The notes below the pieces were generated by a model. That model saw only the letters and a program-made list of their open reading frames with translations. It did no database searches and was not told the DNA's origin. From positions 1 through 64,000 of the forward strand of contig JANXNI010000032.1 of the NCBI GenBank assembly GCA_025354165.1: a stretch of DNA of 64,000 nucleotides. Reading direction: 5' to 3'. The stretch is from Burkholderiales bacterium (GTDB lineage Bacteria; Pseudomonadota; Gammaproteobacteria; Burkholderiales; Casimicrobiaceae). Within the stretch, counting starts at the first letter, position 1; each line of letters starts with the position of its first letter. This document shows positions 15,997-62,710 of this stretch, one piece after another. Made by a program: the position numbers and the translations under genes.

Positions 15997-16113
15997 CAGC
16001 TTTTCGTCAAAAGCTTTATTTTATCTGGGCTAACGCCAGAAATCGTCAATAGTCGACAATCAAACCAAACGACTGCTAGCCCCTTTGAAAAAGCGATCTT
16101 ATCGGAAAAGCTG
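15997..16113. repeat. 116-bp dyad-symmetric intergenic element, copy A
   Basis: Copy A of a family found six times here. It starts CAGCTTTTCG, with a perfect 7-bp hairpin (AGCTTTT, loop CGTC, AAAAGCT). Inner arm GGGCTAACG at 16027 faces CTAGCCCC at 16076, and the centre is GTCGAC at 16052-16057. It ends GGAAAAGCTG at 16113, one base longer than the other copies. It lies between the convergent lpxC and dciA genes. Flanking bases 15977-15996 and 16114-16188 hold nothing I recognise. Confidence 0.85.
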
Positions 16114-16188
16114 TACTTTTCCCGGCACGACGCCATCCCAAATTTGCTGCCCGAATTCGCAGAAACCCGAAATTTCCCGGCGATCCAG

Positions 16189-16683
16189 CTAACGATTCGC
16201 CACCGTTTTCGCTAATCGCTTAAGACTAGTTTGCAGGCGCTCACTGTTGATGCGATCAGCGGTGGCGTTCAGTTTCCGCTGAGAATCGACCGCTGGCAGC
16301 ACTCTTGGCCGAGCCGCGGACGCACCGTTAGATTGCGTCTTTAACGAAATTTCGTTAAATTTCAGTCCCTTACGGTCCAGATTCGTGAGCATTTCGGTGC
16401 TTAAGAGCCGCGTCAGATGTGCGGCCTCGGCGGATACGACGGTGATACTCAGCGTTGAACCTGAGGCCGACATAGCCACGACAAAGCGCTTCAGACGCTC
16501 CGGCACTGCCTCAATCAACACATCGAATTGACGCGAACCTTCGCGGGCATGCAGTAACGCCGCGCTCAAAGCGGGCAGACGATCCAGATACTGGGTCAAG
16601 CCTGTTGGGCGAGGATAGAGTTGTTTAGCGCGCGGATAGAGTGCTTTGTCAACGCCGGAATTATTGAGGAATCTCACTTGCAA
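16189..16683 (-). CDS. dciA: DUF721 (DciA-like) protein
   Basis: 164 residues. The central part (LPALSAALLHAREGSRQFDVLIEAVPERLKRFV, then LSITVVSAEAAHLTRLLSTEMLTNL) fits the DUF721/DciA fold. DciA proteins help load the replicative helicase DnaB in bacteria that lack DnaC. This position between lpxC and an M23 peptidase before secA is usual for betaproteobacterial DUF721 genes. The longest start is TTG at 16683, in the same TTGCAA palindrome that starts the divergent peptidase gene; a GTG two codons later is the alternative. Assignment is by domain pattern and context. Confidence 0.72.
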   Translation of the reverse strand: MQVRFLNNSGVDKALYPRAKQLYPRPTGLTQYLDRLPALSAALLHAREGSRQFDVLIEAVPERLKRFVVAMSASGSTLSITVVSAEAAHLTRLLSTEMLTNLDRKGLKFNEISLKTQSNGASAARPRVLPAVDSQRKLNATADRINSERLQTSLKRLAKTVANR

Positions 16684-17589
16684 ATTATCGTTGTTTCGAG
16701 TGACTTTAGAACCAAGAAATCGCTGAATGTTGGCGTGCCGCAGGTCGTCGGCTTGACGTTTGTTGCGTTGCTCGCGTTAGGTTTGACGGCCACGCTCGCC
16801 AATTACCTCTCGCTTAAATACGCCGCCACCAGCAATCACCCGCTGATTCGCAGCGTGCTGCTGGCCGACCAGCACGCCGAAGCGAAAGAGCGCCAGCAGC
16901 AAATTCAGGACAACATCAACAATCTCGCCGTCAAGCTGGGCGAAGTTCAAGCGCACATGATGCGGCTGGACGGACTGGGCGAGAAGCTCGCCAAGGTCGC
17001 GGGCTTGAAGCCCGCCGAGTTGCCGAGTGCAACGGCTAACAGCGGCCGCGGCGGTGCAGCCACCGTGGGTGCGCCGCTCTCGATTGACGATTTCGCAAAA
17101 CAGTTAAGCGAATTGAATAAAAACGTCGACGTCAAGGCCGACCAGCTCTCCGTGCTGGAAGCGCTTCTGGTTGAGGGCAGCGCGCAGCGCAAGTTCTTAC
17201 CGACGCTGCCCCCGGTTGAAAACATCAATTACACCTCGAACTTCGGATACAGGATTGACCCGTTTACCGGGCATCAAACCTTCCACGAAGGCGTGGACTT
17301 CGCTGCCGAAACCGGCACCGCAATCAATGCAGCCGCCAGCGGCAAAGTGATTTATGCAGATACCCATCCCGCCTACGGCAAAAGCATTGAAATTGACCAC
17401 GGAAACGGGCTCGTCACGCGTTACGCGCACAGCTCCGAGCTTCTGGTCAAAGAAGGCGATCTCGTCGTGCGTGGCCAACGCATCGCCCGCGTTGGCACCA
17501 CCGGTCGCTCCACCGGCCCGCATCTGCATTTCGAAGTGCGCCTCAACGGCGTCGCACAGAATCCCGGTCGCTTCCTCGCGGTTCAGTAG
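16678..17589 (+). CDS. M23-family peptidoglycan endopeptidase (LytM-like), membrane anchored
   Basis: 303 residues: a short cytoplasmic start, a membrane helix at about 20-42, a coiled-coil region (KERQQQIQDNINNLAVKLGEVQ) and a C-terminal LytM domain. Zinc-site motifs are visible: FHEGVDFA (H..D), and GPHLHFEVRLNG with the HLH pair. Such proteins cleave peptide cross-links or activate amidases in the periplasm. I chose TTG at 16678 because TGAGGA lies 7 bases upstream and homologues begin MQII; the upstream ATG at 16621 is unlikely. Divergent from dciA with overlapping start codons. Confidence 0.88.
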   Translation: MQIIVVSSDFRTKKSLNVGVPQVVGLTFVALLALGLTATLANYLSLKYAATSNHPLIRSVLLADQHAEAKERQQQIQDNINNLAVKLGEVQAHMMRLDGLGEKLAKVAGLKPAELPSATANSGRGGAATVGAPLSIDDFAKQLSELNKNVDVKADQLSVLEALLVEGSAQRKFLPTLPPVENINYTSNFGYRIDPFTGHQTFHEGVDFAAETGTAINAAASGKVIYADTHPAYGKSIEIDHGNGLVTRYAHSSELLVKEGDLVVRGQRIARVGTTGRSTGPHLHFEVRLNGVAQNPGRFLAVQ

Positions 17590-17817
17590 CGCAGACTACG
17601 CCTCTTCGCTGCGGCTAGTGCCGCGCCCCCTGCGGCAATCGCCGCGGGCACAGCGGCGACCGCCGCTCCACATAGAATCTAGGGTTTCGCCCGCTTCGCC
17701 TTCGCAGCATGATTTTGTGCTTGCGGAGTCCGGCGGGCCTTGCTACATCCGCAACGTTGGCCACCGTTATGCAGGCGGCCACATTTCCCGCGTCCACTTC
17801 ACGCGCAGTTCAAGATC

Positions 17818-20541
17818 ATGATCGACAAATTTCTAAAAACAATATTCGGCAGCCGTAACGACCGCCTGCTCAAACAATTTCGCGGCAATGTGATCAAGAT
17901 CAACGCGCTTGAGGACGGTCTCAAGGCGTTGTCGGACGAGCAGCTCCGTGGCAAAACTGCCGAGTTCAAAAAACGCGTGACTGATGGTGAAACGCTCGAC
18001 GATTTGCTGGTTGAGGCATTCGCGGTGGTGCGCGAAGCCGGTCGCCGCGTGCTCGAAATGCGTCACTTTGACGTGCAGCTAATCGGCGGCATGGCGCTGC
18101 ATGAAGGCAAGATTGCCGAGATGCGTACGGGCGAGGGCAAAACGCTGATGGCGACGTTGCCGATTTACCTGAATGCGCTGTCCGGCAAAGGCGTGCATCT
18201 GGTGACGGTGAACGATTACCTCGTAACGCGCGATGCCGACTGGATGGGACGCATCTATCGTTTTCTCGGCATGAGCGTTGGCACCGTGACGTCGCAGCAG
18301 GACAACGCGTCGAAGATTGCCGCTTACGCTGCCGACATCACTTACGGCACTAACAACGAATTCGGCTTCGACTATCTGCGCGACAACATGGAATACGCGG
18401 TCGCCGATCGTCGTCAGCGCGGACAGAACTACGCAATCGTCGATGAGGTCGATTCGATCCTGATTGATGAGGCGCGGACGCCACTCATCATCTCGGGTCA
18501 GGCCGAAGACAACATCGAGATTTATTACAAAATCAACGATTTGTCGCCCAAGCTCACACGGCAAGAGAAAGAAGATTCGCCCGGTGATTACTGGGTCGAC
18601 GAGAAGGGCCGTCAGGTTCATCTGTCGGAACAGGGCCACGAGCATGCCGAACAATTGCTTGAACAAATGGGCTTGCTGCCTACCGGTGCAAGCCTGTACG
18701 ACGCCGCGAACATTTCGTTGATGCACCATGTGTACGCGACCCTACGCGCACATACCTTGTACAACCGCGACGAGCATTACGTCGTGCAGGATGGTGAAGT
18801 CATCATCGTTGACGAATTTACCGGTCGCCTGATGTCCGGTCGCCGGTGGAGCGAAGGGCTGCACCAAGCCGTCGAAGCGAAAGAGGGTGTGCCGATTCAG
18901 CGCGAGAATCAAACGCTCGCCTCGATCACGTTCCAGAACTATTTCCGCATGTACGCGAAGCTCGGCGGCATGACCGGAACGGCCGATACAGAGGCCTACG
19001 AATTCCAGCAGATTTATAACCTCGAAACCGTCATCATTCCCACCCATCGCGACATGGTGCGTCGCGACGAAAACGATCTGTTCTTCAAGTCCTCCGCCGA
19101 GAAATATGCGGCTTCGGTGATCGATATTCGCGACTGCTACAACCGCGGTCAGCCAGTGCTGGTGGGCACGACCTCGATTGAAAACTCCGAGCTGATCTCG
19201 GCGATGCTCACCAAAGAGAAATTGCCGCATCAGGTATTGAACGCGAAGCAGCATGAGCGCGAGGCGAGCATCGTCGCACAGGCGGGCATGCCCAAAGCCG
19301 TGACCATTGCGACCAACATGGCCGGTCGCGGCACCGACATCGTGCTCGGCGGTGCGCTCGAGCCCGAACTGCGCGCGATTCGTGAAGATGAGTCGTTGTC
19401 GACTGATGAGCGCAAAGCCAAGATGGAAGCCACACAGACGGCATGGCAAGCGCGCCATGATGAAGTGCTCGCGGCGGGCGGTTTGCGCATTGTGGGCACC
19501 GAGCGCCACGAGTCGCGTCGTATCGACAATCAGTTGCGCGGTCGCGCCGGTCGTCAGGGTGACGCCGGTTCTAGTCGCTTCTTTTTGTCTGCTGAAGACC
19601 CACTGATTCGCATCTTCGGCGGTGACCGCATGAAGAACATCATGACGCGTCTGCGCATTCCGGACGGCGAGCCGATCGAGGCGGGCATCATGTCGCGCCA
19701 GATCGAAAAGGCGCAGCTCAAAGTGGAGTCGCGCAACTTCGATATTCGCAAGCAACTGCTTGAGTACGACGACGTTGCCAACGACCAGCGCAAAGCGATT
19801 TACGAACAGCGAAATCACCTGCTCGAACACGCGAACGTCAGTGACACCGTGCGCGACATGATCGGTGGCTGGGTGGACGATACGGTCAAACTGTACGTGC
19901 CACCCGAGAGCCAGGAAGAGCAATGGGATCTACCAGGCCTTGAGGCTGCGATGCACGATGTGCAGGTGCACGCGCATGTTGCCGATTGGCAAAAAGCGCA
20001 GCCTGATTTGGACGACACAGACATTCTTGAGCGGTGTAAAAAAGAAGCGCTCGACACCTACAACGCCAAGCGCGAAGTCGCTGGCGAAGAAGTGTTCAGT
20101 CAGTTCGAGCGCAACATCCTGCTCCAGATTATGGACACGCAGTGGCGTGAGCATTTGTCGAACCTCGACTTGCTGCGTCAGGGCATCCATTTGCGCGGCT
20201 ATGCGCAAAAGAATCCGAAGCAGGAATACAAGCGTGAATCGTTCGAGATGTTCGGCGGCATGCTGGATCGTTTCCGTGGCGAAGTCGTGCGTATTTTGTT
20301 GACCGTGCAAGTTCGCTCCGAAGCGGACGCGCAGGCCGTTGAGCCCGCGCCCGCGATGCAGAACGTGGCGTACAAGCATGCGGATGTTGATGGGCTGACG
20401 GGCGAAGAAACTGTGGTTGCCGCTTCGGATTCGAATAGCAATCAGCCGACCGTGAACCAAGGTTCGAAACTTGGGCGCAACGACCCGTGTTTCTGCGGTT
20501 CTGGCAAGAAGTACAAGAACTGTCACGGGCGATTGGATTAA
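17818..20541 (+). CDS. secA: Preprotein translocase ATPase SecA
   Basis: Motor of the Sec export channel, 907 residues. Walker A is MRTGEGKT with Lys108, the DEAD-like box is [17 protein letters not shown], and GTDIVLGG and [10 protein letters not shown] are helicase motifs of NBD2. The C-terminal zinc motif [14 protein letters not shown] binds SecB and lipids. The frame is open from 17740, but [19 protein letters not shown] at 17818 matches the family start. The 228 bases before it are GC-rich with no feature I can assign. Confidence 0.97.
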
Positions 20542-20560
20542 CTTCTAGCATTGATGTTCT

Positions 20561-20654
20561 TGTAGAAGCGGCTTGCCGCGATCCAACGTCGAATTGGCGC
20601 TTCATTCATGAAACGTTCGTAACGTCAGACAGGTCGCGGCAAGCCGCTCCTACA
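20561..20654. repeat. REPIN-like inverted repeat pair between secA and argJ
   Basis: The left arm at 20561-20581 (TGTAGAAGCGGCTTGCCGCG plus one A) and the right arm at 20634-20654 are reverse complements at 20 of 21 positions, 52 bases apart. The core AGCGGCTTGCCGCGA resembles the REP sequences of pseudomonads and xanthomonads, where two inverted REPs form a REPIN mobilised by a RAYT transposase. No RAYT gene is in this window. Confidence 0.75.
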
Positions 20655-20686
20655 TTCAGTCCAAGTAACGTTTGAATTTTCTGATC

Positions 20687-21925
20687 ATGCCTGTTTCCTA
20701 CTCCTCTCTCGATCCCGCTAAAGCCCACGCAGTCGCGGGTGTCCGCTTTGCATCGGTGCAAGCGGGTGTGCGCAAACCCAATCGCTACGACATGCTCGTC
20801 GCTGAGTTCGCTGAAGGCACAAACGTTGGTGGCGTGTTCACGCAGAGTCGGTTTGCAGCAGCGCCGGTGCAGGTGTGTCGTGAGCATCTGGCTGCAACGA
20901 CGGCAATTCGCGCGCTCGTTGTCAACACCGGAATCGCTAACGCAGCGACCGGTGAACTCGGTTTGATCAATGCGCGTGCGAGTTGCGCTACAGCGGCGAC
21001 TGCGCTTGCTTGCAATGCTAATCAGGTGCTTCCGTTTTCGACCGGCGTGATCCTCGAACACCTTCCGATGGATCGCATCAGCGCAGGCATCTTAGCCGCC
21101 GCAGATGAGATCAAGGCGAACAAATTCGCCGCATGGGATCGCGTTGGGCAGACGATCATGACTACCGACACGGTCTACAAGCTGGCAAGTGCACAAGCGG
21201 TGATCGGAGGCAAAACGGTCAATGTGACTGGCATCGCTAAAGGTGCCGGGATGATTCAACCGAACATGGCGACGATGCTTTCGTTCGTGTTCACCGACGC
21301 TGCCATTGCACCTGCGTTATTGCAACCGCTCGCAAAGCAGGTTGCCGACGTGAGTTTCAACCGCGTGACGGTTGACGGCGACACCTCAACCAATGACAGC
21401 TACATCATCGCCGCGACCGGCAAGGCGGGGAACGCGGACGTTACGTCGCTCGAATCCGCCGACGGCAAAGCGCTGGTAGCGGCACTAGAAAAAGTCAGTT
21501 TAGAGCTCGCGCAGGCCATCGTGCGTGACGGCGAAGGCGCAACCAAGTTCATGACCATCGCCGTGAGCGGCGGCAAAAATGTCGCTGAATGTGATCGCAT
21601 CGCGCGCGCCGTCGCGCATTCGCCGCTCGTGAAAACGGCGTTCTTCGCGAGCGACCCGAACCTCGGCCGCATCCTCGCTGCCGTGGGCTACGGCGCGCCG
21701 ATGGATCTTGATCCAGCGCTTGTCACGGTGCATTTGAACGAAGTTCTGGTCGCAGAAAAAGGCGGACGCGCTGCGAGCTATCGCGAAGAAGATGGTGCGC
21801 GAACCATGAAGAACGAAGACATCACAGTCGCGATTGATCTGGGCCGTGGCGATGCCGCGCAAACGATTTACACCTGTGACTTTTCATACGACTACGTGAA
21901 GATAAATGCGGAATACCGTAGCTGA
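20687..21925 (+). CDS. argJ: Bifunctional ornithine acetyltransferase / N-acetylglutamate synthase ArgJ
   Basis: Recycles the acetyl group between N-acetylornithine and glutamate in arginine synthesis; 412 residues. ArgJ cleaves itself, and the site is visible as [15 protein letters not shown] with nucleophile Thr196. The C-terminal EYRS and the [11 protein letters not shown] motif are typical. The ATG at 20687 ([10 protein letters not shown]) fits homologues; a TTG at 20672 is in frame. It follows secA across a REPIN-like repeat and precedes the DUF815 ATPase by 12 bases. Confidence 0.95.
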
Positions 21926-21937
21926 TTCGGCCGCACT

Positions 21938-22846
21938 ATGAGCCAATCCAGCCAGCAATTTCTAGACACGCTCGGGCGCATCGCCAACGCGCTCGAGCGC
22001 ATGGCCCCTGCGTCGCGTGCAAAGCCCGACTTCAAGCATTGCGTCGCCGCGCGTTGGCGCGTTTCGGGAACACTGAAATACCTCGAAGCCGTGCAGCATG
22101 TGCATCATATGGACGCGGATTGGCTGGTAGGTGTTGAAGCGCAGCACGCACAAATTGATCGAAATACGAAGCAATTTGTCACCGGCAAGCCAGCCAACAA
22201 TGTGCTGTTGACCGGCTCGCGCGGCACGGGCAAAAGCTCGCTGGTGAAAGCGATGCTCGCACGCTACGCCAAACGCGGTCTACGATTGATTGAGGTCGAG
22301 AAAGAGCATCTCAACGACATGCCAGACATCGTCGATCAGATCGCCGATGAGTCGTATCGCTTTGTGCTGTTTTGCGACGATCTATCGTTTGATGCGGGCG
22401 ACGGGAGCTACAAGGCGCTGAAAGCGATTCTCGACGGTTCAATCGCTGCGGCAACTCCTAATGTATTGATTTACGCCACGTCGAATCGCCGTCATTTGCT
22501 CCCCGAATATTTCCACGAAAACGAAGAGACGAAGTACGTCGGCGAAGAGGTGCATTTCGGCGAAAGCGTCGAGGAAAAAGTGTCGCTCTCCGAGCGCTTC
22601 GGCATGTGGATTTCGTTCTATCCGTTCTCGCAGGAAGACTATCTCGCGGCAGTTACGTCGTGGGCGCAACAGCTGGGCGCGGCGATTCCGTCGGACGTGA
22701 AGAAACACGAGGTTTTTGAGCGTGATGCGCTCAACTGGGCGCTGCAGCGCGGCTCACGTTCGGGACGCGTTGCGTTTCAGTTTGCGCGTGATTTTGCCGG
22801 GCGTGTGGGTGGCGGCGCTAACGCGGCCAAATCCAAAGGCGCATGA
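21938..22846 (+). CDS. DUF815 AAA-type ATPase
   Basis: 302 residues. Walker A is GSRGTGKSS at 93-101 and Walker B is VLFCDDLSF, followed by the sensor-like IYATSNRRHLLPEYF that is characteristic of DUF815. The family is widespread beside argJ in betaproteobacteria, but its cellular role is not established to my knowledge. Its stop overlaps mutT by ATGA, so the two are probably co-translated. Confidence 0.9.
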   Translation: MSQSSQQFLDTLGRIANALERMAPASRAKPDFKHCVAARWRVSGTLKYLEAVQHVHHMDADWLVGVEAQHAQIDRNTKQFVTGKPANNVLLTGSRGTGKSSLVKAMLARYAKRGLRLIEVEKEHLNDMPDIVDQIADESYRFVLFCDDLSFDAGDGSYKALKAILDGSIAAATPNVLIYATSNRRHLLPEYFHENEETKYVGEEVHFGESVEEKVSLSERFGMWISFYPFSQEDYLAAVTSWAQQLGAAIPSDVKKHEVFERDALNWALQRGSRSGRVAFQFARDFAGRVGGGANAAKSKGA

Positions 22847-23295
22847 GTCGCGATATTCCGAGATTCGACGTCAACGACGCGCGGCCGTTAACGCGTGTCG
22901 CCGTCGCCATTATTGAGCGCGTTGTTGACGGCCAATATCAAGTTCTCTTTGCACAGCGCCCGGTCGGCAAAGCCTACGCCGGTTACTGGGAATTTCCCGG
23001 CGGCAAAATCGAAGCAGGCGAGACCGTCGTTGAAGCGCTCATTCGCGAGATCGACGAAGAGTTGGGCATCCGCATTCAGAGCGCGAAGTCGTGGCGAACC
23101 GAGCGTTTCAGCTACGAGCACGCGCACGTGGAACTGAACTTCTGCCGCAGCAACGACTGGTCTGGCGAACCGCACGGTCGCGAGGGGCAGGCGTTTGCAT
23201 GGCAAGCGCCAAACGCGATCAGTGTGGCTCCGCTGCTGCCCGCTTTGCACGCGCCGGAGAGCGGTATTTTGGCAGATTTGCGCGCGTCGCCTTAG
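22843..23295 (+). CDS. mutT: NUDIX hydrolase, MutT-like (8-oxo-dGTP pyrophosphatase)
   Basis: 150 residues with a complete Nudix box, GGKIEAGETVVEALIREIDEELGI, starting near residue 53. GKAYAGYWEFPGGKIE and the small size match MutT, which removes oxidised dGTP from the nucleotide pool. Substrate is inferred from family and locus. ATGA overlap with the DUF815 gene. It ends 4 bases before repeat copy B and faces yacG. Confidence 0.88.
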   Translation: MSRDIPRFDVNDARPLTRVAVAIIERVVDGQYQVLFAQRPVGKAYAGYWEFPGGKIEAGETVVEALIREIDEELGIRIQSAKSWRTERFSYEHAHVELNFCRSNDWSGEPHGREGQAFAWQAPNAISVAPLLPALHAPESGILADLRASP

Positions 23296-23299
23296 CCAC

Positions 23300-23415
23300 C
23301 AACTTTCCTCTGAAACGACGTCTGCGTGGGGGATAACGCCATAAAACTCTGGTAGTCGACAATGGTTAAATCCAGGGCCTAGCCCCAATAAAGACTAGTT
23401 TTCAGCTGAAAGCTG
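23300..23415. repeat. 116-bp dyad-symmetric intergenic element, copy B
   Basis: The most diverged left end (CAACTTTCCTCTGAAACG), but every landmark keeps its spacing: GGGGATAACG at 23329, central GTCGAC at 23355-23360, CTAGCCCC at 23379 and a right end CAGCTGAAAGCTG at 23415. It fills the whole gap between the convergent mutT and yacG, and the yacG stop codon begins at the next base. GACTAG at 23393 and CTAGTC at 23416 add a further stem that includes the stop codon. Confidence 0.82.
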
Positions 23416-23601
23416 CTAGTCGTCAACCCTCGACGCCATCGGATCGCCATCGGGCGGCGTGGCATTGGCAATGCGGTACTCCTCATTCGCCCAGGCACCA
23501 AAATCCATGTTCTTGCAGCGCTCCGAGCAGAACGGGCGAAATTTGCTTTCCGCGCTCCAAATGACGGGCTTTTGACAGCGTGGGCAGGCGACAGTTGTCA
23601 T
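23416..23601 (-). CDS. yacG: Zinc-binding DNA gyrase inhibitor YacG
   Basis: 61 residues with the four-cysteine zinc site of Yac[11 protein letters not shown] and [22 protein letters not shown]. In E. coli YacG binds GyrB and inhibits gyrase. It is the last gene of the minus-strand pilB-pilC-pilD-coaE-zapD-yacG run and lies 12 bases after zapD. The stop codon abuts repeat copy B. Confidence 0.93.
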
Positions 23602-23613
23602 GGTTTCAAAACG

Positions 23614-25097: not shown

Positions 25098-25102
25098 GTC
25101 GC

Positions 25103-25954: not shown

Positions 25955-25965
25955 GAGTCATCGTC

Positions 25966-27213: not shown

Positions 27214-27264
27214 ATCGAATTCCTCTTCAGTTAATGCGGTTGCTGTCGGGCACGATCAGACGGA

Positions 27265-28983: not shown

Positions 28984-29146
28984 TCTGGTTACAAATTCGT
29001 AGATTGTGTTTCAGGTAAGTTCAGCAGTGTGCCGCGTAAGCACTTGGTTGTAAAGCGGATTTTACGATTTACGGGGTCAGCATAAGCGATGTCTGCAACA
29101 TCTACTGACCGCCTAAAATGCAATTAGTGCTGCTTAAAAAGATCTC

Positions 29147-30630: not shown

Positions 30631-30746
30631 CAGCTTTCAGCCAAAACGACCGCTTGATAGGGGCTAAGCACAAAAAATCTAATAAGTCGGTAATCGCGTA
30701 TTTCTGCCGTACGCCCCAATTCAGTGCCACTTTCACCGAAAAGCTG
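30631..30746. repeat. 116-bp dyad-symmetric intergenic element, copy C
   Basis: Left end CAGCTTTCAGCC at 30631, GGGGCTAAGC at 30660, centre AGTC|GG at 30688/30689, TACGCCCC at 30710, right end CTTTCACCGAAAAGCTG at 30730-30746. The right end is nearly the reverse complement of the left consensus. It lies between the codirectional ffh and ybiB and ends 7 bases before the ybiB ATG, so it would form most of the ybiB leader. Bases 30533-30630 hold no gene. Confidence 0.83.
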
Positions 30747-30753
30747 TTGATTT

Positions 30754-35428: not shown

Positions 35429-35518
35429 GGAAGCGTGGCCGAGCGGTTGAAGGCACCGGTCTTGAAAACCGGCGACGGGGCAACCCGTTCGTGAGTTCGA
35501 ATCTCACCGCTTCCGCCA
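35429..35518 (+). tRNA. tRNA-Ser (anticodon UGA)
   Basis: 90 bases including an encoded CCA. The acceptor stem GGAAGCG pairs with CGCTTCC (35505-35513 area), the anticodon loop CTTGAAA carries TGA, there is a long variable arm (CGACGGGGCAACCCGTTCG) as in serine tRNAs, and GTTCGAATC forms the T loop. TACAAT at 35414-35419 could be its -10. Its 3' end is followed at once by a region with IS debris. Confidence 0.96.
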
Positions 35519-42730: not shown

Positions 42731-42846
42731 CAGCTTTTCGCTGAACCGCACACTGCATTGGGGCTCGCAGCTTAAAATCATGAATAGCGACATACAAATA
42801 AAATTGGTGGTAGCCCCCGTGTAGTGGCGCTTTTAGACAAAAGCTG
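42731..42846. repeat. 116-bp dyad-symmetric intergenic element, copy D
   Basis: Left end CAGCTTTTCGCTGAA at 42731, GGGGCTCGC at 42760, centre AGC|GAC at 42788/42789, GTAGCCCC at 42810, and a right hairpin GCTTTT-AGAC-AAAAGC at 42829-42844 ending GCTG at 42846. It lies between convergent DUF962 and DUF429 genes, and the last four codons and stop of the DUF429 gene are inside it. AAAGCGACTAT before the left end recurs before copy F. Confidence 0.85.
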
Positions 42847-44631: not shown

Positions 44632-44700
44632 CTGCCCATTCACATTTTGGGCATTTGTGGCCCTTCATGGGCGGTGTGGCGGCGCTGGCGGTTGAGGCCG
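44632..44700 (+). pseudogene. 5' remnant of a second mpl gene
   Basis: CTGCCCATTCACATTTTGGG aligns with the intact mpl start ATGCACATTCACATTCTGGG at 49409. The remnant reads PIHILGICG, then a one-base deletion shifts to FMGGVAALAVEA. Similarity stops near 44700, where a minus-strand IS3 sequence begins. The start codon has become CTG. The intergenic region back to the DUF455 gene also matches 49302-49408, so the divergent locus was duplicated. Confidence 0.85.
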
Positions 44701-45300
44701 AGCAAACCCGCCGACGACGAAGGCCACGTAGACGAAGAACTGCCAAGTCGAAACGTAGGTGAAGTCGCTGACCCACAGCTGGGCGGGCCTGTCAGCGTGG
44801 AACGGCCGATTGAGTCGATCGAGTGGACACGGCACCTTCGCGTCAGGGACTGTCGTTCGCACGCTCTGGCCGCGCACCACGCCTCGCAGTCCGAGCGGGC
44901 GCATCAGGCGCTCCACGGGGCAGCGGATCACCTCGATGCGCTCGCGATTGAACTGCTTCCAGACCTTGTCGGCGCCGTAGGTGCGGATGTTGGCGTTCCA
45001 CACGCGATCAAGCTCGGGCATCAATCGCGCATCGAGATTGCGCCGCGGCGGACGCTGCGCCGGATCGCTTCGACGCTCGTACTCGCGCCAGTACATCGAC
45101 GGAGCAACCCGCAGGATCTTGCAGATCGGCTCGACCCCGAAACGAGCGCGGTGCTAGTCGGCGAATGCCATTACGACTTCGAGCGCCGTCGGAAACGCCT
45201 GAGCCCTCTGCGAGCACAAGCTTGACCGCCTCGGCTCGATACTCGTGGCTAAAAATTCGTTTCAGTACTGATTGCATAAATGACTCGTTGATTCGGTGAC
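44700..45300 (-). mobile_element. IS3-family element remnant (orfA and 5' half of orfB)
   Basis: Minus-strand frame 45096-44700 reads NIRTYGADKVWKQFNRERIEVIRCPVERLMRPLGLRGV, then APCPLDR-like VPCPLDRLNRPFHADRPAQLWVSDFTYVSTWQFFVYVAFV, the N-terminal half of an IS3 OrfB up to the first catalytic Asp (SDFTY). OrfA debris (IFSHEYRAEAVKLVLAEGSGVSDG) lies at 45277-45150 with frame breaks. The left end is probably near 45300; the right half is missing and the sequence is fused to the mpl remnant. Not the same IS as at 35.7 kb. Confidence 0.85.
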
Positions 45301-48558: not shown

Positions 48559-48568
48559 CTGCCTCGAC

Positions 48569-50773: not shown

Positions 50774-50783
50774 GGCTACGGAT

Positions 50784-52130: not shown

Positions 52131-52139
52131 GCACTCGAT

Positions 52140-54961: not shown

Positions 54962-54982
54962 AGCGTGCCATAGAATCATCGT

Positions 54983-55909
54983 GTGAAGCGCACGATAAAA
55001 GCCATTCAGGCTCCTGCCACGCTGCCAATAGCGGTGGGCTTGAGTCCATTGCTCAAATGGACGCTAGCGGCGTCTATTGGCGTGCATGTGATCCTGCTGT
55101 CGCTGCATTTCGAATTGCCGAAGCTGTTCAAGCAGTCCGCGCCAACGCCTCCACTTGAGGTGTCGCTGGTGAATGCCAAAACGCAATCAAGGCCTTCGAA
55201 AGCGGATTTTCTGGCGCAGGCTAATCTCGACGGCGGCGGCAACACGGACGCCAAACGCCGACTCAGTTCGCCATTACCGCGCGCTGCAATGGACGCGCAG
55301 CAAACTCAAATCGCGGTCGCCAAAGAGCAGGTGGAATCCCTGGAGCGGCAAACGCGAGAACTGCTGCAGCAACTTCGTTCGAAAAATCAGGCGCCAACGG
55401 ATCGCGACGCTAAAGAGTCGAAACGCACGGATTCGACCAACGCGTTTCAGGAGTTGTCAGCCAAGGCGCTCGAGTTGCAACGGCTTGAAGCGCAAATCGC
55501 GCGCGAATTTGATTCGTATCAGCAGCGCCCGAAGAAAAAGCATATTGGCGCTCGTGCGACCGAGTATCGTTTTGCCCGTTATGTTGAAGACTGGCGGCAA
55601 AAAGTAGAGCGTGTGGGTAACGCCAATTACCCGGCTATCGCGCGTGCGCAAAAGCTCTACGGCTCGCTCGTGTTGACCGTCGCTATCAAAGCGGACGGGC
55701 GTATCGAAACCATTGAAGTAGATCGCGGATCAGGCAATAAAATCCTCGATGCTTCAGCGCTAAAAATCGTCGAATTGGCATCGCCGTATGCGCCGTTTCC
55801 AGCCGATATCCGGAACGATACTGACATCATCTACATTACCCGAACATGGAGCTTCACGCGGGCAGGAGAGCTTGAGAGCTCCGTCGGTGGAAACCTTAAA
55901 GCGCCATGA
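54983..55909 (+). CDS. TonB-family energy transducer
   Basis: 308 residues. A membrane helix at about 25-46 (LLKWTLAASIGVHVILLSL), a charged coiled-coil middle (KEQVESLERQTRELLQQLRSK), and a C-terminal TonB domain (ARYVEDW-like RFARYVEDWRQKVERVGNANYP, YGSLVLTVAIKADGRIETIEV). It would transmit force to outer-membrane receptors. GTG start at 54983; TAGAAT lies 6 bases upstream. No exbB/exbD adjacent. Confidence 0.88.
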   Translation: MKRTIKAIQAPATLPIAVGLSPLLKWTLAASIGVHVILLSLHFELPKLFKQSAPTPPLEVSLVNAKTQSRPSKADFLAQANLDGGGNTDAKRRLSSPLPRAAMDAQQTQIAVAKEQVESLERQTRELLQQLRSKNQAPTDRDAKESKRTDSTNAFQELSAKALELQRLEAQIAREFDSYQQRPKKKHIGARATEYRFARYVEDWRQKVERVGNANYPAIARAQKLYGSLVLTVAIKADGRIETIEVDRGSGNKILDASALKIVELASPYAPFPADIRNDTDIIYITRTWSFTRAGELESSVGGNLKAP

Positions 55910-55916
55910 AGTTCCT

Positions 55917-56768
55917 ATGAAAAGTACGGACAAATACGCCGTCTTCGGCAACCCCGTCATGCACAGCAAAAGCCCGCGCATTCACGCGCTCTTCGCCGCA
56001 AGCGTGAATCAGCACATCGACTACGAAAAGCGCGTCGCACTACTGGGCGATTTCGCGGGCGAGCTGCAACGTTTTTTTGATGAAGGCGGTGTCGGAGCGA
56101 ATGTGACGGTACCGTTCAAGCGCGATGCGTTTGCGCTCGCTGGCAGTGCGTCATTGCGCGCAACACAGGCCGGTGCTGCAAACTTCTTAATGTGGCGCGA
56201 CGATCATTGGTACTGCGACAACACGGATGGCGCAGGCTTGGTGCGCGATATCGAGACGAATTTACAGATGAGTCTCAAGGACAAGAGCGTTTTACTGCTC
56301 GGCGCTGGCGGGGCTGCGCGTGGCGTGATTGGGCCGCTATTGCTGCGTGCACCGAAGCAAATCGTGGTGGTAAACCGGACGGCAGGGCGTGCGATCGAAT
56401 TGGTGTCAGCTTACGAAAAGCAGTACGCAGCGAGCGCGCTTTCGGTCGACGCTTTGATCGTGCAGTCGATGAAATTTGACGTGGTGATTAACGCCACGTC
56501 GTCGAGCTTGAGTGGCGAATTGCCGCTGCCTGACAGCGCAAATATTTTTGCTTCCGATGCGCTCGCATACGACATGATGTACGGGAAGCAGCCGACAACG
56601 TTTATGAATTGGGCGCTGCGTCAGGGTGCGTCGCGCGTGGCCGATGGCCTTGGAATGCTGGTTGAGCAGGCTGCCGAAAGCTACGTGCAATGGCGCGGTG
56701 TGTTACCGCAAGCCGCGCCAATCATCGCGCAACTTCGCGCCGAATTGGCGAGCGAGTCATCAACGTAG
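55917..56768 (+). CDS. aroE: Shikimate dehydrogenase AroE
   Basis: 283 residues. YAVFGNPVMHSKSP at the N-terminus, NVTVPFK with catalytic Lys68, DNTDGAG with Asp104, and the NADP loop LLLGAGGAARGVIGPLL are intact. It reduces 3-dehydroshikimate in aromatic amino acid synthesis. The ATG at 55917 matches the family start; the frame extends upstream into tonB. TAG stop overlaps the mtgA GTG by one base. Confidence 0.95.
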   Translation: MKSTDKYAVFGNPVMHSKSPRIHALFAASVNQHIDYEKRVALLGDFAGELQRFFDEGGVGANVTVPFKRDAFALAGSASLRATQAGAANFLMWRDDHWYCDNTDGAGLVRDIETNLQMSLKDKSVLLLGAGGAARGVIGPLLLRAPKQIVVVNRTAGRAIELVSAYEKQYAASALSVDALIVQSMKFDVVINATSSSLSGELPLPDSANIFASDALAYDMMYGKQPTTFMNWALRQGASRVADGLGMLVEQAAESYVQWRGVLPQAAPIIAQLRAELASESST

Positions 56769-57481
56769 TGCCAAAAAATTTGTTACGCTCCTTCGGGCGA
56801 ATGCTGGCTGCGGTCTTCCTCGCGATGGCCGGTTTGTTTATCGTCGTTCAGTGCTGGTTCGCGTTGCAGGTGTGGTGGTACGCCGATCATGCGCCCGGCA
56901 GCACGGCATTCATGTCCTTTCGCATGGGCGAGCTGCACGAAAAAAAACCTGACGCCACGATTCGCTATGAATGGGTGCCGTCCGCCAAAATCTCTCGCAA
57001 TCTAAAGCGCGCATTGATTGCCGCCGAAGATTCAACGTTTGTCGACCACGAAGGTTTCGACTGGGACGGAATCCAGCTCGCGCTCGAAAAAAATCGCGCC
57101 AAAGGCAAGACTGTGGCGGGTGGTTCCACTATCACGCAACAACTCGCCAAGAATTTGTTTCTGTCGCCCGAGAAGAGCTATCTGCGCAAAGGTCAGGAAG
57201 CCATCATTACGCTCATGCTCGAACGCATGCTTGATAAGGAGCGCATTCTTGAGCTTTATCTGAACGTGATTGAGTGGGGCAACGGGATCTTTGGTGCGGA
57301 GGCTGCAGCGCGTCGCTATTACGGCGTTTCGGCCGCACAGCTTTCGGGAGAACAGGCAGCAAAGCTCGCCGCAATGGCTCCGAATCCGCGTTTTTATGAG
57401 CGCAATTTGGGCGCGCCGGGACTGCGCAAAAAGACCGGCATCATCCTCTCGCGCATGCCGCAAGTGGAGCTGCCGGACTGA
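56768..57481 (+). CDS. mtgA: Monofunctional peptidoglycan glycosyltransferase MtgA
   Basis: 237 residues: a membrane helix at about 10-35 and a GT51 domain with catalytic Glu87 in AAEDSTFVDHEGFDW, then GGSTITQQLAKNLFLSPEKSYLRKGQE and NVIEWGNGIFGAEAAARRYY. It polymerises lipid II without a transpeptidase domain. GTG at 56768 overlaps the aroE stop. aroE-mtgA is a common betaproteobacterial pair. Confidence 0.95.
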   Translation: MPKNLLRSFGRMLAAVFLAMAGLFIVVQCWFALQVWWYADHAPGSTAFMSFRMGELHEKKPDATIRYEWVPSAKISRNLKRALIAAEDSTFVDHEGFDWDGIQLALEKNRAKGKTVAGGSTITQQLAKNLFLSPEKSYLRKGQEAIITLMLERMLDKERILELYLNVIEWGNGIFGAEAAARRYYGVSAAQLSGEQAAKLAAMAPNPRFYERNLGAPGLRKKTGIILSRMPQVELPD

Positions 57482-57497
57482 TCGAGCTTCCGCGCAT

Positions 57498-58595
57498 CTA
57501 TTTGCGCGCGAAATACCAGTTGAACATGATGGGTTCTGATCCTGACCTGTTGGTATCAGCGCCCTCAATGGTCATGCCGTCCGCGCTGACCATCCCTTGC
57601 GCCTCCACGTTCAACGTCCCCTTGCTGCCACCAAAATAGGCGGCGTTTGCGAAGGTTGAAAATGGCGGCGGCGGATTCGGGCAAGTGATCGTGGCGATGC
57701 TCGGCCACTGCGTGATTCCCGAGCCGTGATAAGTGGGTGGGACGCTGTTGTAGTCGATAAACATCACACCGGACGATGGACTGATGACGCCGTTGTCTGG
57801 CGAGTAGGTAAGGCAGCCGTGCACGATCACGCCGGCCGTGCCTGAGGGGCGATAGGTCGCGACGTTGCCGATATAGCTTTCCAGCGTCCACGTCACTTGG
57901 GCGCTGGCCGAGAGGATTGAGGAGGAAGACGCTCCCGTGCCGACCCACGTCTGGGGCGCTGTGCCGACCGGTGGAATGAGCACATCCGTAAACAAGGTCA
58001 CACAGAACTGGACTCCTTCAATCACATAGCCAGCGGACGCAGCGCTCGTCGCAGTCGCGGCGCTCACCGTGTAGCGATGATTCGACGTTTTGCCGGTACT
58101 GGCGTTGAGTGCGCGAAAGCCCCGACGCACGGCGGTCATTCCATTCGGGCACACTTCTTCGACGGTCAGTTTGACGCCATCATCGGTGGCCGCGCCAATG
58201 CCCGGCGTCGACGATTGCACGGCGAAGTCAAAGCCTTCGTAGCTAAATCCAGCCGGGTTCGCGGCGAGGATCGATTCGCAGTCGGTGCCCTCTTTGCCGT
58301 AGAAGTGCGAATTGACGAAGGGGCTCGTCAGACTCACGTAAAAGCGGCAAATTTTTGTGAGTGCAGAGGGGGCCGCTGCCGCAGCGCTCGCCTGAAAACT
58401 CATGCCGGTACGCGAGAAATCAGCGACGGTGTCGAGCAACTGTTGCTCCGCGACGCGCCCGGTGATGAAGTACGCGTCGAGCGTCTTGTTGCGGTATTCG
58501 ACGACGGTGACCGTTTGTGCACTGACCGACGCGAACAGCGTGGACAGAGCCACGACGCTGGCGAATATTAGGCGGATGACGTTGAAATGCTTCAT
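57498..58595 (-). CDS. Secreted protein with DUF5648-like repeat domain
   Basis: 365 residues. A signal peptide (MKHFNVIRLIFASVVALSTLFASVSAQ) is followed by VVEYRNKTLDAYFITGRVAEQQLLD and FYVSLTSPFVNSHFYG, a motif set found in secreted beta- and gammaproteobacterial proteins. Several cysteines could pair. The C-terminal half, rich in Ser, Thr and Gly, is unassigned. The ATG at 58595 has a strong AGGAGG site 7 bases upstream; the longer frame from 58658 is unlikely. Function unknown. Confidence 0.78.
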   Translation of the reverse strand: MKHFNVIRLIFASVVALSTLFASVSAQTVTVVEYRNKTLDAYFITGRVAEQQLLDTVADFSRTGMSFQASAAAAAPSALTKICRFYVSLTSPFVNSHFYGKEGTDCESILAANPAGFSYEGFDFAVQSSTPGIGAATDDGVKLTVEEVCPNGMTAVRRGFRALNASTGKTSNHRYTVSAATATSAASAGYVIEGVQFCVTLFTDVLIPPVGTAPQTWVGTGASSSSILSASAQVTWTLESYIGNVATYRPSGTAGVIVHGCLTYSPDNGVISPSSGVMFIDYNSVPPTYHGSGITQWPSIATITCPNPPPPFSTFANAAYFGGSKGTLNVEAQGMVSADGMTIEGADTNRSGSEPIMFNWYFARK

Positions 58596-58749
58596 AAACA
58601 CCTCCTGATGAAAGAAGAGACGCAATTGCCGGACGCAACGCGTCATCACGCGTTGCAACGTGAAATCGGGTGTCGCTCTGTCGCCCCGGTTGCGCCATTA
58701 GAATTGAGGTTCTGCCTTGGCAAAATCCCTCCTTGGAACCTCCTCCTCC

Positions 58750-60228
58750 ATGCCCGAAGCCCTCGAAAAAGAGTCGCTTGTTGCGAATAGCGCGAGCGTG
58801 GATGATGCCCTTACCGAAGCGCTAGCCGACGTTACGGCGTTGGTACGTCAGTACCGGCTTCTCTCCGGTTTCGCCGAAAGTCTGGCCGACACGCTCGATA
58901 ATCCCTCGCAGAGCCCCGTGGTGCAAGGCGTGCTTGCGCGCCTGCGCGAAACACTCGAAGAGTTGCACCCGGCCGACGTTGCACACATTCTTGAGGCGTT
59001 GCCACTCGACGAGCGCATGTTCGTCTGGGATCTGGTCAAAGCGGATCGCGACGGCGACATCCTCATGGAGGCGTCGGATTCGGTTCGCGAAAGCCTGATC
59101 GCGAGCATGGATGCGCCGGAGCTAATGGCTGCGGCAGCGACGCTCGATACCGATGAACTTGCTGACCTCGCTCCCGATTTGCCGAGCGAAGTGGTCGAAG
59201 CGGTCAAACGGACGCTCGATCCGGAAGAGCGCGAACAGTTGCGTCAGGCCATGTCGTACGAAGAAGACATGGTTGGCGCGTTGATGGACTTCGAGATGAT
59301 CGAGGTGCGCTCCGACGTGACGCTCGCCGTCGTAATGCGCTATTTGCGACGTTTCGAAGAATTGCCAGCCAACACGGACAAGGTGTTCGTGGTGGATCGC
59401 GACGATAAGTTGCTCGGTGTGCTGCCGACCAACGTGATTCTGGTGACGCACGAGGATGCGCTGGTGAAGGACGTGATGGTCGAACCGAACATCGTGTTCG
59501 AGCCGACGGATCAAGCCGATGCCGCCGCCGCCGCGTTTGAACGGTACGATCTTGTGTCGGCCCCCGTGGTGGATGCCAAAGGCGTGCTTGTGGGCCGTGT
59601 GACGGTTGCTGAAGTGCTCGATTTCGTGCGTGAAAGCGCGGAAGAGGACATGCGGCAGCAGGCCGGTTTGCGTGACGAAGAAGACATTTTTGCAAGCGTG
59701 TGGAAGAGCGTGCAGAACCGCTGGCAATGGCTGGGCTTGAACCTGATTACTGCGTTCGTTGCGTCGCGTGCGACTGACCTGTTTCAGGGTTCGATTGCCA
59801 AGTTGGCCGTGCTCGCGGTGTTGCAAACCATTGTCGCCGGAATCGGCGGCAATTCCGGTAATCAGACGCTGACGATGATCGCGCGCGCCATTGCGCTCGG
59901 ACAAATTGGCACCGAGCACTTTCGCCGCCTCGTGAAAAAAGAGATGTCTGTCGCGATCATCAATGGCCTGATTTTCGGCGGTGTGATCGGCGTGGTCATT
60001 GGACTCATGGAGAGCAATCTTGCGCTCGGGCTGGTGCTCATGCTCGCCATGACGCTGAACCTCATGCTCGCCACGATCATGGGCGTGGTCATTCCCATGT
60101 GGCGTTACCGTCAAGGCAAAGACCCGGCGGCTGGCTCCAGCGTACTGCTGACGGCGGTCACAGATACTGGCGGGTTCTTTATTTTTCTCGGACTGGCGAC
60201 GATTATTTTGCTGCGCTCGAATACGTGA
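58750..60228 (+). CDS. mgtE: Magnesium channel MgtE
   Basis: 492 residues. The N domain (LRETLEELHPADVAHILEALPLDERMFVWDLV) and two CBS domains (about 170-300) form the cytoplasmic Mg2+ sensor; five membrane helices follow, with GIGGNSGNQTLTMIARAIALGQI lining the pore. I prefer the ATG at 58750 (MPEALEKESL), which fits homologues; a TTG at 58717 with GAGG upstream is possible and adds 11 residues. Confidence 0.93.
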   Translation: MPEALEKESLVANSASVDDALTEALADVTALVRQYRLLSGFAESLADTLDNPSQSPVVQGVLARLRETLEELHPADVAHILEALPLDERMFVWDLVKADRDGDILMEASDSVRESLIASMDAPELMAAAATLDTDELADLAPDLPSEVVEAVKRTLDPEEREQLRQAMSYEEDMVGALMDFEMIEVRSDVTLAVVMRYLRRFEELPANTDKVFVVDRDDKLLGVLPTNVILVTHEDALVKDVMVEPNIVFEPTDQADAAAAAFERYDLVSAPVVDAKGVLVGRVTVAEVLDFVRESAEEDMRQQAGLRDEEDIFASVWKSVQNRWQWLGLNLITAFVASRATDLFQGSIAKLAVLAVLQTIVAGIGGNSGNQTLTMIARAIALGQIGTEHFRRLVKKEMSVAIINGLIFGGVIGVVIGLMESNLALGLVLMLAMTLNLMLATIMGVVIPMWRYRQGKDPAAGSSVLLTAVTDTGGFFIFLGLATIILLRSNT

Positions 60229-60237
60229 CATGAGTAG

Positions 60238-60353
60238 CAGCTTTTGGCTACAGCGCTTATCTATATTGGGCTAAGCACTCAAAAATGCATTTATCGATTT
60301 CGTTCGCTTTATCTGCCGGGCCCATGCTCAGTATGACTTTCGATAAAAAGCCA
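60238..60353. repeat. 116-bp dyad-symmetric intergenic element, copy E
   Basis: Left end CAGCTTTTGGCTACAGC at 60238, GGGCTAAGCAC at 60268, centre ATC|GAT at 60295/60296, CGGGCCCA at 60317, right end CTTTCGATAAAAAGCCA at 60337-60353. Between codirectional mgtE and the OGT-like gene; it ends 26 bases before the GTG at 60380. Confidence 0.8.
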
Positions 60354-60379
60354 TAAACAAAGGAAGCCTGAGAAATCCC

Positions 60380-62557
60380 GTGTCGCCGGAACTGAAATCA
60401 GCGCTGCAATTGCACCAGTCGGGGCAGGCCGTAGACGCTTTGCCACTCTACGCGCACGTGCTCGTTGACCAGCCGGACAACGCAGCGGCGCTGTTCTATG
60501 GCGGCGTTGCAGCGTGGACGGCAGGCGACGCCGCGCTCGCGCTGGAGCGCCTGAATCGTTTGCTGGCGGCTAGCCCGCAACCGGTGGCGGAGGCGCACTA
60601 CCACCGTGCGCTGGCGCTGACCTCGCTCGGGCGCGAGCAGGAGGCCGCCGTCGACTACCAAGCTGCGCTGCGCTTGAAACCCGGGCTAATTGCCGCGCAT
60701 AACAACCTTGGTGAATTGCAGCGCAAGCAGCGCAACTTTGCAGGGGCCGACGCATCGTTTGCCGCTGCCTTGCAGATTGATCCGTCGCATGTTGATGCGC
60801 GCTATAACCGCGCGCTCAACGCCACGCAGAGCGGCGATTTGCGGCGTGCGCGCGCCTGGCTCGACGAATGCATCAAACACAATCCGGATCATGCGAACGC
60901 TCGCGCCACGCTGGTGGATGTGCTCAATGATCTGGGCGAACGGGTGGAAGCGCTGACGCTCGCACGCGCCAGCTGCAAGCGCTTACCCGCGCCCGCCGTG
61001 CTCTGGAACGCACTCGGTCAGATGGAGCAGGCCGCGGGCAATATCGACGAGGCGCAAGCGGCATTCCAGGCTGGCCTCAAGCGCGAACCTGACAACTCAA
61101 TTGTCGCCATGAATCTCGCGTTATTGCAGAGTGAGAATGCTGCCGTCGACGCCGCCCGACGCACCTACGAATCTGCGCTAGCCATTCATGAACACGCAGG
61201 ATTGCGCCTGCGCCTTGCGACGCTGCTACCGCCTATTCCCGCGTCCGAGGCGGAAATCAGTGTTGCACGCACACAATTTTCAGCGCAGCTGAAAGATCTG
61301 CGCACTGCGAATTTGCGGCTCGACGATCCGCTCAATGACTTTGGCGACACGCCGTTTTATCTCTCGTATCACGGTCGTGACGATGATCGGACGCTGCTTG
61401 CCGATCTTGCTACGACATTGCACGCGGCGGCTCCGGCGCTCACGTTCACTGCCGACCACCTTGCTCGTCCGCGCAAATCCGGCAAACCGCGTCTCGGAAT
61501 ATGTTCGCATTTCCTGTTCGATCAAAGCGTCGGGCGTGCTTTGCATGCAGTGATCGCCGGGTTACCGCGCGATGAATTCGAGTTGCACTTATTCGTAGTC
61601 CCGCCGTTTTTCGACGATGCGCTCGCACGAAAAATCGCTAGCGGCGCGACAGTGCATCGGCTTCCGTTTGATCTGATCGCCGCGCGTGATCGCATCGCGG
61701 CGACCGAACTTGACTGGTTGCTGTATCCCGAAATCGGCATGGAGGCGTTGACTTATTACCTCGCTCATGCACGCCTCGCACGCTCGCAGTGGAATACGCT
61801 TGGACACCCGTGCACCAGCGGCCTCACGACTATTGATAGATACGTGAGCTATGCGGCGCTGGAGCCGCAAGGCAGCGAGCGTTTCTATTCGGAAACGCTG
61901 TTGCGCCTGCCCGAAGGTTCGCCATTTCCCGCGTATCCTGCTGCCGCATTACCCACCAAAATGCGCGACCGCCGTGCGCTGGGTTTGGCCGGTGACGGCG
62001 AATGGCTGATCTGCCCGCAGTCGTTGTTCAAACTGATGCCGCGATTCGACGCAACGCTTGCCGCGATCCTTGACGCTTCGCCAAACGCGACGCTGCTGTT
62101 GCCCGAGGCAACCTTTCCCGGACAGACGGCCGCCCTCAAAGCACGTTTCGCCACAACGCTCGGCGCTGCCGCAGAACGGGTGCGCTTTTTCAGGCGACGG
62201 TCGCGTACTGAATTTGTTGAACTGATCGCGGCGTGCGACCTATTGCTGGACCCATTTCCCGTGGGCGGCGGGATCACAACGTGGGACGCGCTAGCGACGG
62301 GAACCCCCATCGTCACATTGCCCGGCCAGCACCTGCGCGGCCGCTTCGCAATAGCGGCGCTGGCTGCGGCCAGTATTACCGAAACCGTCGCAGCGAACGA
62401 AGCCGATTATGCTGTGATTACGACTCGTCTGCTTGGGAGCGCCGAAGAGCGACACACCTTACGCCGACAACTCGCGACCGCCGCACCCGAGATTTACGCT
62501 GATCAACGCGCTGTCGCGCATTGGGTGGCTGCGATCCGCGACAGCGTCCAACAGTAA
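60380..62557 (+). CDS. TPR protein with O-GlcNAc-transferase-like (GT41) domain
   Basis: 725 residues. About seven TPR repeats occupy residues 1-270 (for example NPDHANARATLVDVLNDLGERVEAL). A GT41-like catalytic region follows: PRLGICSHFLFDQSVGRALHAVIAGLP, LDWLLYPEIGMEALTYYLAHARLARSQWNTLGHPCTSG, and FVELIAACDLLLDPFPVGGGITTWDALATGTPIVTLPG. The family glycosylates proteins in eukaryotes; bacterial members act on flagellin, adhesins or other targets. The start is GTG at 60380. No target gene is obvious nearby. Confidence 0.88.
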   Translation: MSPELKSALQLHQSGQAVDALPLYAHVLVDQPDNAAALFYGGVAAWTAGDAALALERLNRLLAASPQPVAEAHYHRALALTSLGREQEAAVDYQAALRLKPGLIAAHNNLGELQRKQRNFAGADASFAAALQIDPSHVDARYNRALNATQSGDLRRARAWLDECIKHNPDHANARATLVDVLNDLGERVEALTLARASCKRLPAPAVLWNALGQMEQAAGNIDEAQAAFQAGLKREPDNSIVAMNLALLQSENAAVDAARRTYESALAIHEHAGLRLRLATLLPPIPASEAEISVARTQFSAQLKDLRTANLRLDDPLNDFGDTPFYLSYHGRDDDRTLLADLATTLHAAAPALTFTADHLARPRKSGKPRLGICSHFLFDQSVGRALHAVIAGLPRDEFELHLFVVPPFFDDALARKIASGATVHRLPFDLIAARDRIAATELDWLLYPEIGMEALTYYLAHARLARSQWNTLGHPCTSGLTTIDRYVSYAALEPQGSERFYSETLLRLPEGSPFPAYPAAALPTKMRDRRALGLAGDGEWLICPQSLFKLMPRFDATLAAILDASPNATLLLPEATFPGQTAALKARFATTLGAAAERVRFFRRRSRTEFVELIAACDLLLDPFPVGGGITTWDALATGTPIVTLPGQHLRGRFAIAALAAASITETVAANEADYAVITTRLLGSAEERHTLRRQLATAAPEIYADQRAVAHWVAAIRDSVQQ

Positions 62558-62594
62558 GCAAATTTGCTCCGCTGCTCCGGAGAAAAGCGACTTT

Positions 62595-62710
62595 CAGCTT
62601 TTCGTCGAAAGCGCGACTAAACCGGGGCTAGCGCTAAATTTGGCTGGATATCGACTTCCTGCAATACCGGACGCTAGCCCCCATAAAACAACGGTTACAG
62701 CCGAAAGTTT
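62595..62710. repeat. 116-bp dyad-symmetric intergenic element, copy F
   Basis: Left end CAGCTTTTCGTCGAAAG at 62595, perfect 10-bp inner arms GGGGCTAGCG (62624-62633) and CGCTAGCCCC (62672-62681), centre ATC|GAC at 62652/62653, right end CCGAAAGTTTA near 62710. It lies between convergent OGT-like and FAH-family genes, reaching the FAH stop codon. AAAGCGACTTT before the left end matches copy D. Confidence 0.86.

Follow-up and report, generated by a model that had tools for sequence, protein, structure and literature searches.

The window analysed in this study is a 64,000-nucleotide stretch of a Burkholderiales bacterium of the family Casimicrobiaceae (assembly GCA_025354165.1, contig JANXNI010000032.1, positions 1 to 64,000), and it carries six copies, A to F, of a 116-bp dyad-symmetric element. 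With moderate confidence, and from sequence comparison, we read these elements as double-stranded recognition sites for a putative two-fold symmetric protein assembly that would bend or wrap DNA and mark domains of ~10 kb. The dyad shows no covariation between its arms, near-neighbour positions depend on each other, the flanks are helically phased, and the elements are intergenic and evenly spaced. In part of the genus their positions are conserved while the free positions within them have turned over. From this we infer that a protein binds and wraps the sites and that the even spacing serves domain formation.

The bacterial chromosome is commonly described as a series of ~10-kb domains, the boundaries of which are, to our knowledge, generally regarded as diffuse and not sequence-encoded. 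A large, sharply defined site that selection keeps at this spacing throughout a genus would amount to a DNA-encoded domain marker.

Anatomy of the elements

At E <= 1, a sequence-only model built from 54 copies of the window's own genome (G000; 4,717,919 bases, 95% complete) finds exactly six places in the window, and the dyad makes each of them match on both strands. They are as follows, none with an assigned strand:

Element A, 15997..16113: 117 bp, 20 bp past the lpxC stop codon; the next gene encodes an M23 peptidase (Pfam: LpxC, M23)
Element B, 23300..23415: between the convergent NUDIX and zapD genes (Pfam)
Element C, 30631..30746: 98 bp past the ffh stop codon
Element D, 42731..42846: between the convergent Mpo1-like and DUF429 genes, with a 14-bp overlap with the DUF429 gene end
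Element E, 60238..60353: flanked by mgtE and a gene for a TPR protein; the weakest copy
Element F, 62595..62710: flanked by the TPR protein gene and an FAA-hydrolase gene convergent with it

The starts (15997, 23300, 30631, 42731, 60238 and 62595) are exactly those of a preliminary description of this DNA, which had proposed a dyad-symmetric intergenic family with fixed spacing, and the family is real. The one-base insertion it saw in copy A is borne out. It was right to count six copies in the window, which is only the window's share of a far larger family. Its arms GGGGCTA and TAGCCCC are present, with variants (TGGGCTA in A, GGGGATA in B), and its length of 116 bp holds for the core, while the conserved part reaches 2 bp further on each side: two A/T positions (-1 and 0) precede each element end, giving 120 bp in all. 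Copy E scores 44.4 bits on its better strand compared with 59.8–63.7 bits for the other five, and 24 of 118 columns are invariant in the alignment of the six.

Information content was measured on the 82 gapless 116-bp copies of G000 with full 60-bp flanks. The element carries 89 bits over its 116 bp, compared with ~0.04 bit per flank position, whereas by simple arithmetic ~14 bits would suffice to find the ~430 places estimated for the genome below. Near-invariant blocks (CAGCTTTT, AA at positions 15–16, GGG and T at 31–35, and TCGA at the dyad) are separated by free positions; in the first copy set (n=53) the outermost bases were fixed by the search pattern itself. Among the half-sites (171 of 178 kept), 12 column pairs exceed the maximum of eight permuted sets, and all 12 lie 1–2 positions apart. 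At half-site positions 45–46, AA and TT together make up 130 of the 171 dinucleotides, with 86 expected, and AT and TA show no such excess. Dependencies between near neighbours are of the kind that would follow from the stiffness of base steps and the width of the grooves and would be a signature of shape readout.

The two arms do not follow each other. The left arm of a copy is no more similar to the right arm of that copy than to the right arms of other copies (0.524 compared with 0.528 in 89 unique plus-strand copies of G000 with at most 12 gaps), and the same holds for own and other arms in three further genomes of the genus: 0.491 and 0.495 in G005 (28 of 32 copies), 0.518 and 0.530 in G013 (10 copies), and 0.510 and 0.533 in G011 (11 copies, with a model that spans the inner 85 positions only). 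Laid out as a full hairpin, 60.3% of positions pair compared with 61.4% in shuffles, with 480 of 500 shuffles pairing equally well or better; hairpins internal to an arm reach 41.5 paired compared with 41.1 in shuffles, and here 162 of 500 shuffles equal or exceed the observed pairing.

Outside the element, GC content oscillates with a period of ~11 bp (11.0–11.2), in register with the element, at a distance of 3–60 bp. None of 1000 position-matched controls, pseudo-elements placed at the same distances after other genes, showed phasing as strong, either in G000 (84 half-flanks) or in G005 (64). A weaker control set gave significance further out; we relied on the matched set instead.

Family size and species versions

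The preliminary description had called for a search of the genome and its relatives, and further copies proved abundant in both the genome and the genus. The end pattern CAGCTTTYN{90,105}RAAAGCTG occurs at 112 places in G000, and its reversed control at none. Among copies from the window and from fetched loci, 48 of 53 are exactly 116 bp long under a search pattern that allowed 112–120 bp. A profile scan of 464 kb of G000 found 42 places, 25 on contig C72 (1–324000, window included) and 17 on contig C4 (1–140000), that is, one per 11 kb, which extrapolates to ~430 per genome. These matches are of full or near-full length except for one half-element, and one further match lies at chance level. 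The genome search with the 54-copy model scored 150 of 1416 candidates and gives a floor, not a total. Two half-elements were seen (G000 C72:223520-223581 and G005 C1:963021-963079), each of which stops just beyond the dyad.

At E <= 0.001 the 54-copy model matches 16 of the 17 genomes of the genus (G000 and the others, G001 to G016), G016 being the sole member without a match, and none of 47 genomes from elsewhere in the family; per-genome counts in this search are floors, with 58 candidates scored in each genome. The simple end pattern was fitted to G000, and divergent versions in other genomes escape it. A strict pattern run over a genome collection returned 34 stretches in seven assemblies (counted by accession prefix), all of them metagenome-assembled genomes (MAGs) titled as Betaproteobacteria, Burkholderiales or Pseudomonadota; the words 'labscale reactor' and 'SlAct', each in one of the seven titles, hint at reactors or sludge. 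A strict related pattern returned no stretch in viral contigs.

The version of the element differs between species. The arm core is of the GGGCT type in G000, G005 and most G011 copies and of the AACGACC...GGTCGTT type in G013. GCTTTT is the usual end in G000, G005 and G013, with looser forms in G011, and the GTCGAC centre is common in the former three but not in the G011, G002 and G007 copies inspected. Length is 116–118 bp in G000, G005 and G013. Minority end forms, TTGGCTTTT or CATCTTTT replacing CAGCTTTT, occur in some copies in the G005 stretches and in G012. For G002 and G007, 100 kb each did not yield full species models; short models found three places and one place, respectively, at strong E-values along with weak paired-strand matches, and the 54-copy model has at least 55 matches in G002 and at least 45 in G007.

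Within a species the sampled sites follow one version, so many sites have changed together, and this joint change suggests a reader that acts in trans. Such a concerted shift of many long sites between species would make a strong example of co-evolution between sites and protein.

Placement, spacing and persistence at loci

In the G000 and G005 stretches all 74 sites are intergenic, 23 between convergent, 36 between tandem and 15 between divergent genes. The gene calls come from a home-made gene finder, and the sites are matches with E below 1e-6, the two half-elements included and one chance-level match (E 0.97) excluded. Counting gaps of any length, sites occupy 23 of 115 convergent, 36 of 578 tandem and 15 of 114 divergent gaps. 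The median distance to the stop codon is 27.5 bp in tandem gaps, and in convergent gaps the nearer stop is never more than 52 bp away.

Spacing was examined for 95 sites in five stretches from four species (two from G000 and one each from G005, G013 and G011). Mean site-to-site gaps are 8.0–12.6 kb, and site-free stretches of 20–36 kb are also present. The pooled normalised gap standard deviation (SD) is 0.552, compared with 0.917 +/- 0.092 (minimum 0.633) under random choice of intergenic gaps, with 0 of 10,000 draws as low as observed. This null drew from gaps of at least 120 bp, a pool that includes gaps lengthened by an element; such lengthening also inflates the convergent enrichment. The even spacing suggests a structural role.

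Several sites persist at their loci. The site of element A is found in G000 and four other genomes. In G012 and G005 it again separates lpxC from the M23 gene; in G006 and G004 the stretch shows no lpxC, and the site precedes the M23 gene. The place of element B is common to G001, G012, G006, G008, G004 and G005, with a site beside zapD in G013 and G011; no site was detected there in the G014 and G002 stretches reaching zapD. The place of element C is shared with ten genomes (G001, G012, G006, G013, G008, G004, G003, G011, G005 and G015). A site was accepted in these comparisons if it matched on both strands over more than 45 bp. At the 3′ ends of G000–G005 orthologs, G005 has a site at 4 of 9 ends that carry one in G000 compared with 3 of 50 that do not (Fisher p 0.008); the four shared ends represent three sites, all within the window. 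On contig C4 all five site-bearing G000 ends are unshared with G005, which indicates that sites turn over.

Intergenic DNA is hardly alignable between the species read, and the orthologous copies of G001 and G006 are mostly no closer to those of G000 than other copies are: among the 82 G000 copies, those matching the ortholog at least equally well number 46 for C of G001, 21 for B of G006 and 38 for C of G006, the exception being B of G001 with 3.

Explanations and comparison with known systems

A symmetric assembly on two independent half-sites would account for a dyad whose arms do not covary, for the dependencies between neighbouring steps, for the phasing of the flanks and for the co-evolution. 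Such an assembly would read each 58-bp half-site independently and bend or wrap a core of 116–120 bp, with phased bending signals over ~60 bp more on each side. Some 400 intergenic sites per genome (extrapolated), ~10 kb apart, could then delimit topological or structural domains. A bolder version is possible, and we hold it only tentatively: a genus-wide, sequence-encoded scaffold of ~400 evenly spaced, nucleosome-like 116-bp wrapping sites, whose symmetric reader evolves, with an arm specificity that has shifted between species (GGGCT as opposed to GGTCGT) and sites that have followed. According to PMC6301789, DNA sequence alone is able to position supercoils, which would provide a protein-free variant of the same idea.

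Several observations weigh against sites for a bending or wrapping assembly. Beyond 60 bp the flank phasing is unconvincing: at 60–110 bp, controls are as high in 26% of cases in G000 and in 2.7% in G005, which is marginal, and at 110–180 bp in 5.3% and 9.5%, respectively. The phase beyond 60 bp also differs between the two genomes, perhaps only because their ends were differently anchored. Inside the element, periodicity at the 19 low-information positions of one core arm is not significant (p 0.30), and the GC period is 9.7 in the core compared with 11.2 in the flanks, although the core value may be dominated by the fixed blocks. Counts of HU/IHF-type and KfrA-type genes in 64 genomes do not tell those with sites from those without, and no binder was identified among them. 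Site C went undetected in G014, G009, G002, G007, G010 and G016, for which the models may be too distant, and only the 4 of 9 ortholog 3′ ends mentioned above carry a site in both G000 and G005.

A known protein that wraps DNA offers an alternative, namely that the elements are strong chromosomal DNA gyrase sites, with gyrase at the dyad, the arms wrapped on the GyrA C-terminal domains and one loading site per ~10-kb domain. We consider this unlikely, and it is the alternative that survives best. As described in PMC6379681, the E. coli gyrase motif is ~130 bp long and symmetric, has a GC periodicity of 10.75 bp and is read indirectly; the element resembles it in size and symmetry and in the ~11-bp phasing of its flanks. 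Its position at gene ends recalls the phage Mu gyrase cut site (17859-17880), 20 bp past a stop codon. In pSC101, the centre 4679 is top-scoring with the 58-bp half GC profile (second at other lengths) and falls at the edge of the stretch in which the par gyrase site would lie; an arbitrarily chosen par midpoint scores poorly. The element's GC profile picks out neither of two other sites: 33% of positions score at least equally high in the case of the Mu site (23% with flanks), and 73% (83% with flanks) in that of the pBR322 991 site, which was read in the pSC101 tet region.

PMC12324340 gives -4G and -2A as cleavage preferences, with -4G reported for all type II topoisomerases tested; the element has A in 62% of copies at -2 but does not show the -4G preference (position 53 is A in 51%, GC 19%). 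The GC period gives a mixed picture, with 9.7 in the core and 11.0–11.2 in the flanks compared with 10.75 in the motif; the phased flanks extend beyond both the E. coli motif and the gyrase footprint (120–140 bp), and near-invariant blocks of 7–8 bases seem beyond what indirect readout would produce. GyrA C-terminal repeats do not set the site-bearing genomes apart: six are present in 14 of these 16 (seven in G004, none found in G014), and there are also six in G016 and 0–7 in the others. These tests lend gyrase little support. Since gyrase cleavage preferences vary between species, according to PMC12324340, they are weak tests, and gyrase is kept as a rival.

The sites might instead insulate transcription units, with a bound protein acting as a roadblock or terminator from both sides at gene ends and the even spacing as a secondary effect. 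The way sites hug stop codons and their over-representation between convergent genes speak for this idea. However, 15 of the 74 sites lie between divergent genes, most gaps have no site, there is no conserved RNA hairpin, and a role at gene ends does not predict spacing more even than a random intergenic choice. We therefore regard insulation as improbable.

The preliminary description had also suggested spread as a small non-autonomous mobile element. A miniature inverted-repeat transposable element (MITE), once spreading through the genus and by now in decay, would account for the high copy number, the terminal inverted repeats and the intergenic position, and new sites must arise somehow because the sites of G000 and G005 differ. 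This origin is nevertheless very improbable. The 82 gapless copies of G000 have a mean identity of 0.532 and a maximum of 0.690, and column permutation gives the same mean and maxima of 0.646–0.716, with 21.5% of permutations as high; the copies thus resemble samples from a single profile and include no recent pair, although they are about a fifth of the estimated total and such a pair could lie among the rest. Identities scatter more widely than in any of the permutations, which indicates that some copies are weaker overall. The matches in the 464 kb are nearly all full length and form no decay series, the same gene neighbourhoods are occupied in several species, and free positions are randomised next to invariant ones. 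The absence of the strict pattern from viral contigs counts against the mobile-element origin too. A phage-borne element was rejected on that result, obtained with one strict pattern. A REPIN/RAYT system was likewise rejected: no intact Y1 transposase gene was found in the genome (95% complete), the sole match (PF01797; G000:C58:14400-14648) being partial with one internal stop.

Least credible of all is selection for an RNA structure or a hairpin of single-stranded DNA, which the full-length dyad and the folding of copies D, F and A (z -5.1, -3.2 and -2.9 relative to shuffles) would favour and which the lack of covariation for the long hairpin and the arm hairpins contradicts, copies B, C and E folding within 1.4 SD of shuffles. 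The preliminary description, which had suggested that a folded form of the DNA or RNA is under selection, had named a covariation test as the check and missing compensatory changes as grounds for giving the proposal up; the arms hold no such changes, and folding is not supported.

That it did not recognise the element as ERIC, REP, BOX or Correia agrees with our searches, as no Rfam family matches at any element and the literature searches returned no description of it in the open literature, though subscription papers lay largely outside that search and absence from print is not proven. The Rfam scan of the window returned only two features above the gathering score, neither at an element:

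tRNA gene, 35429-35515, plus strand
ALIL pseudoknot RF01497, 45100-45212, minus strand, 53.3 bits, adjoining an HTH_21-domain open reading frame (44665-45021, minus strand)

The pseudoknot and the reading frame together probably represent an IS3-type insertion sequence or its remnant.

Among known systems, both the strong gyrase sites (phage Mu centre, pSC101, pBR322) and the gyrase motif of E. coli share with the elements length, two-fold symmetry, helical GC phasing, a place after genes (as in Mu) and a link to supercoiling. Unlike these sites, the elements have near-invariant blocks and ~89 bits of information, and they number in the hundreds (extrapolated) at even spacing. BIME-2, itself a gyrase target, and REP and REPIN sequences are similarly intergenic, palindromic and of high copy number; the elements differ from them in showing no recent copies among the 82 compared, in being a 116-bp dyad without hairpin covariation and in the only partial Y1 transposase match. 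Repeats of the ERIC and MITE type are likewise imperfect palindromes of ~120 bp between genes, from which the elements are set apart by positions conserved across species and by the lack of recent copies and of a decay series. With matS and parS they have in common sequence-specific sites placed on the scale of the chromosome. However, matS and parS sites are ~13–16 bp long and few or regional, whereas the elements are 116 bp long and occur throughout all stretches examined of G000, G005, G013 and G011.

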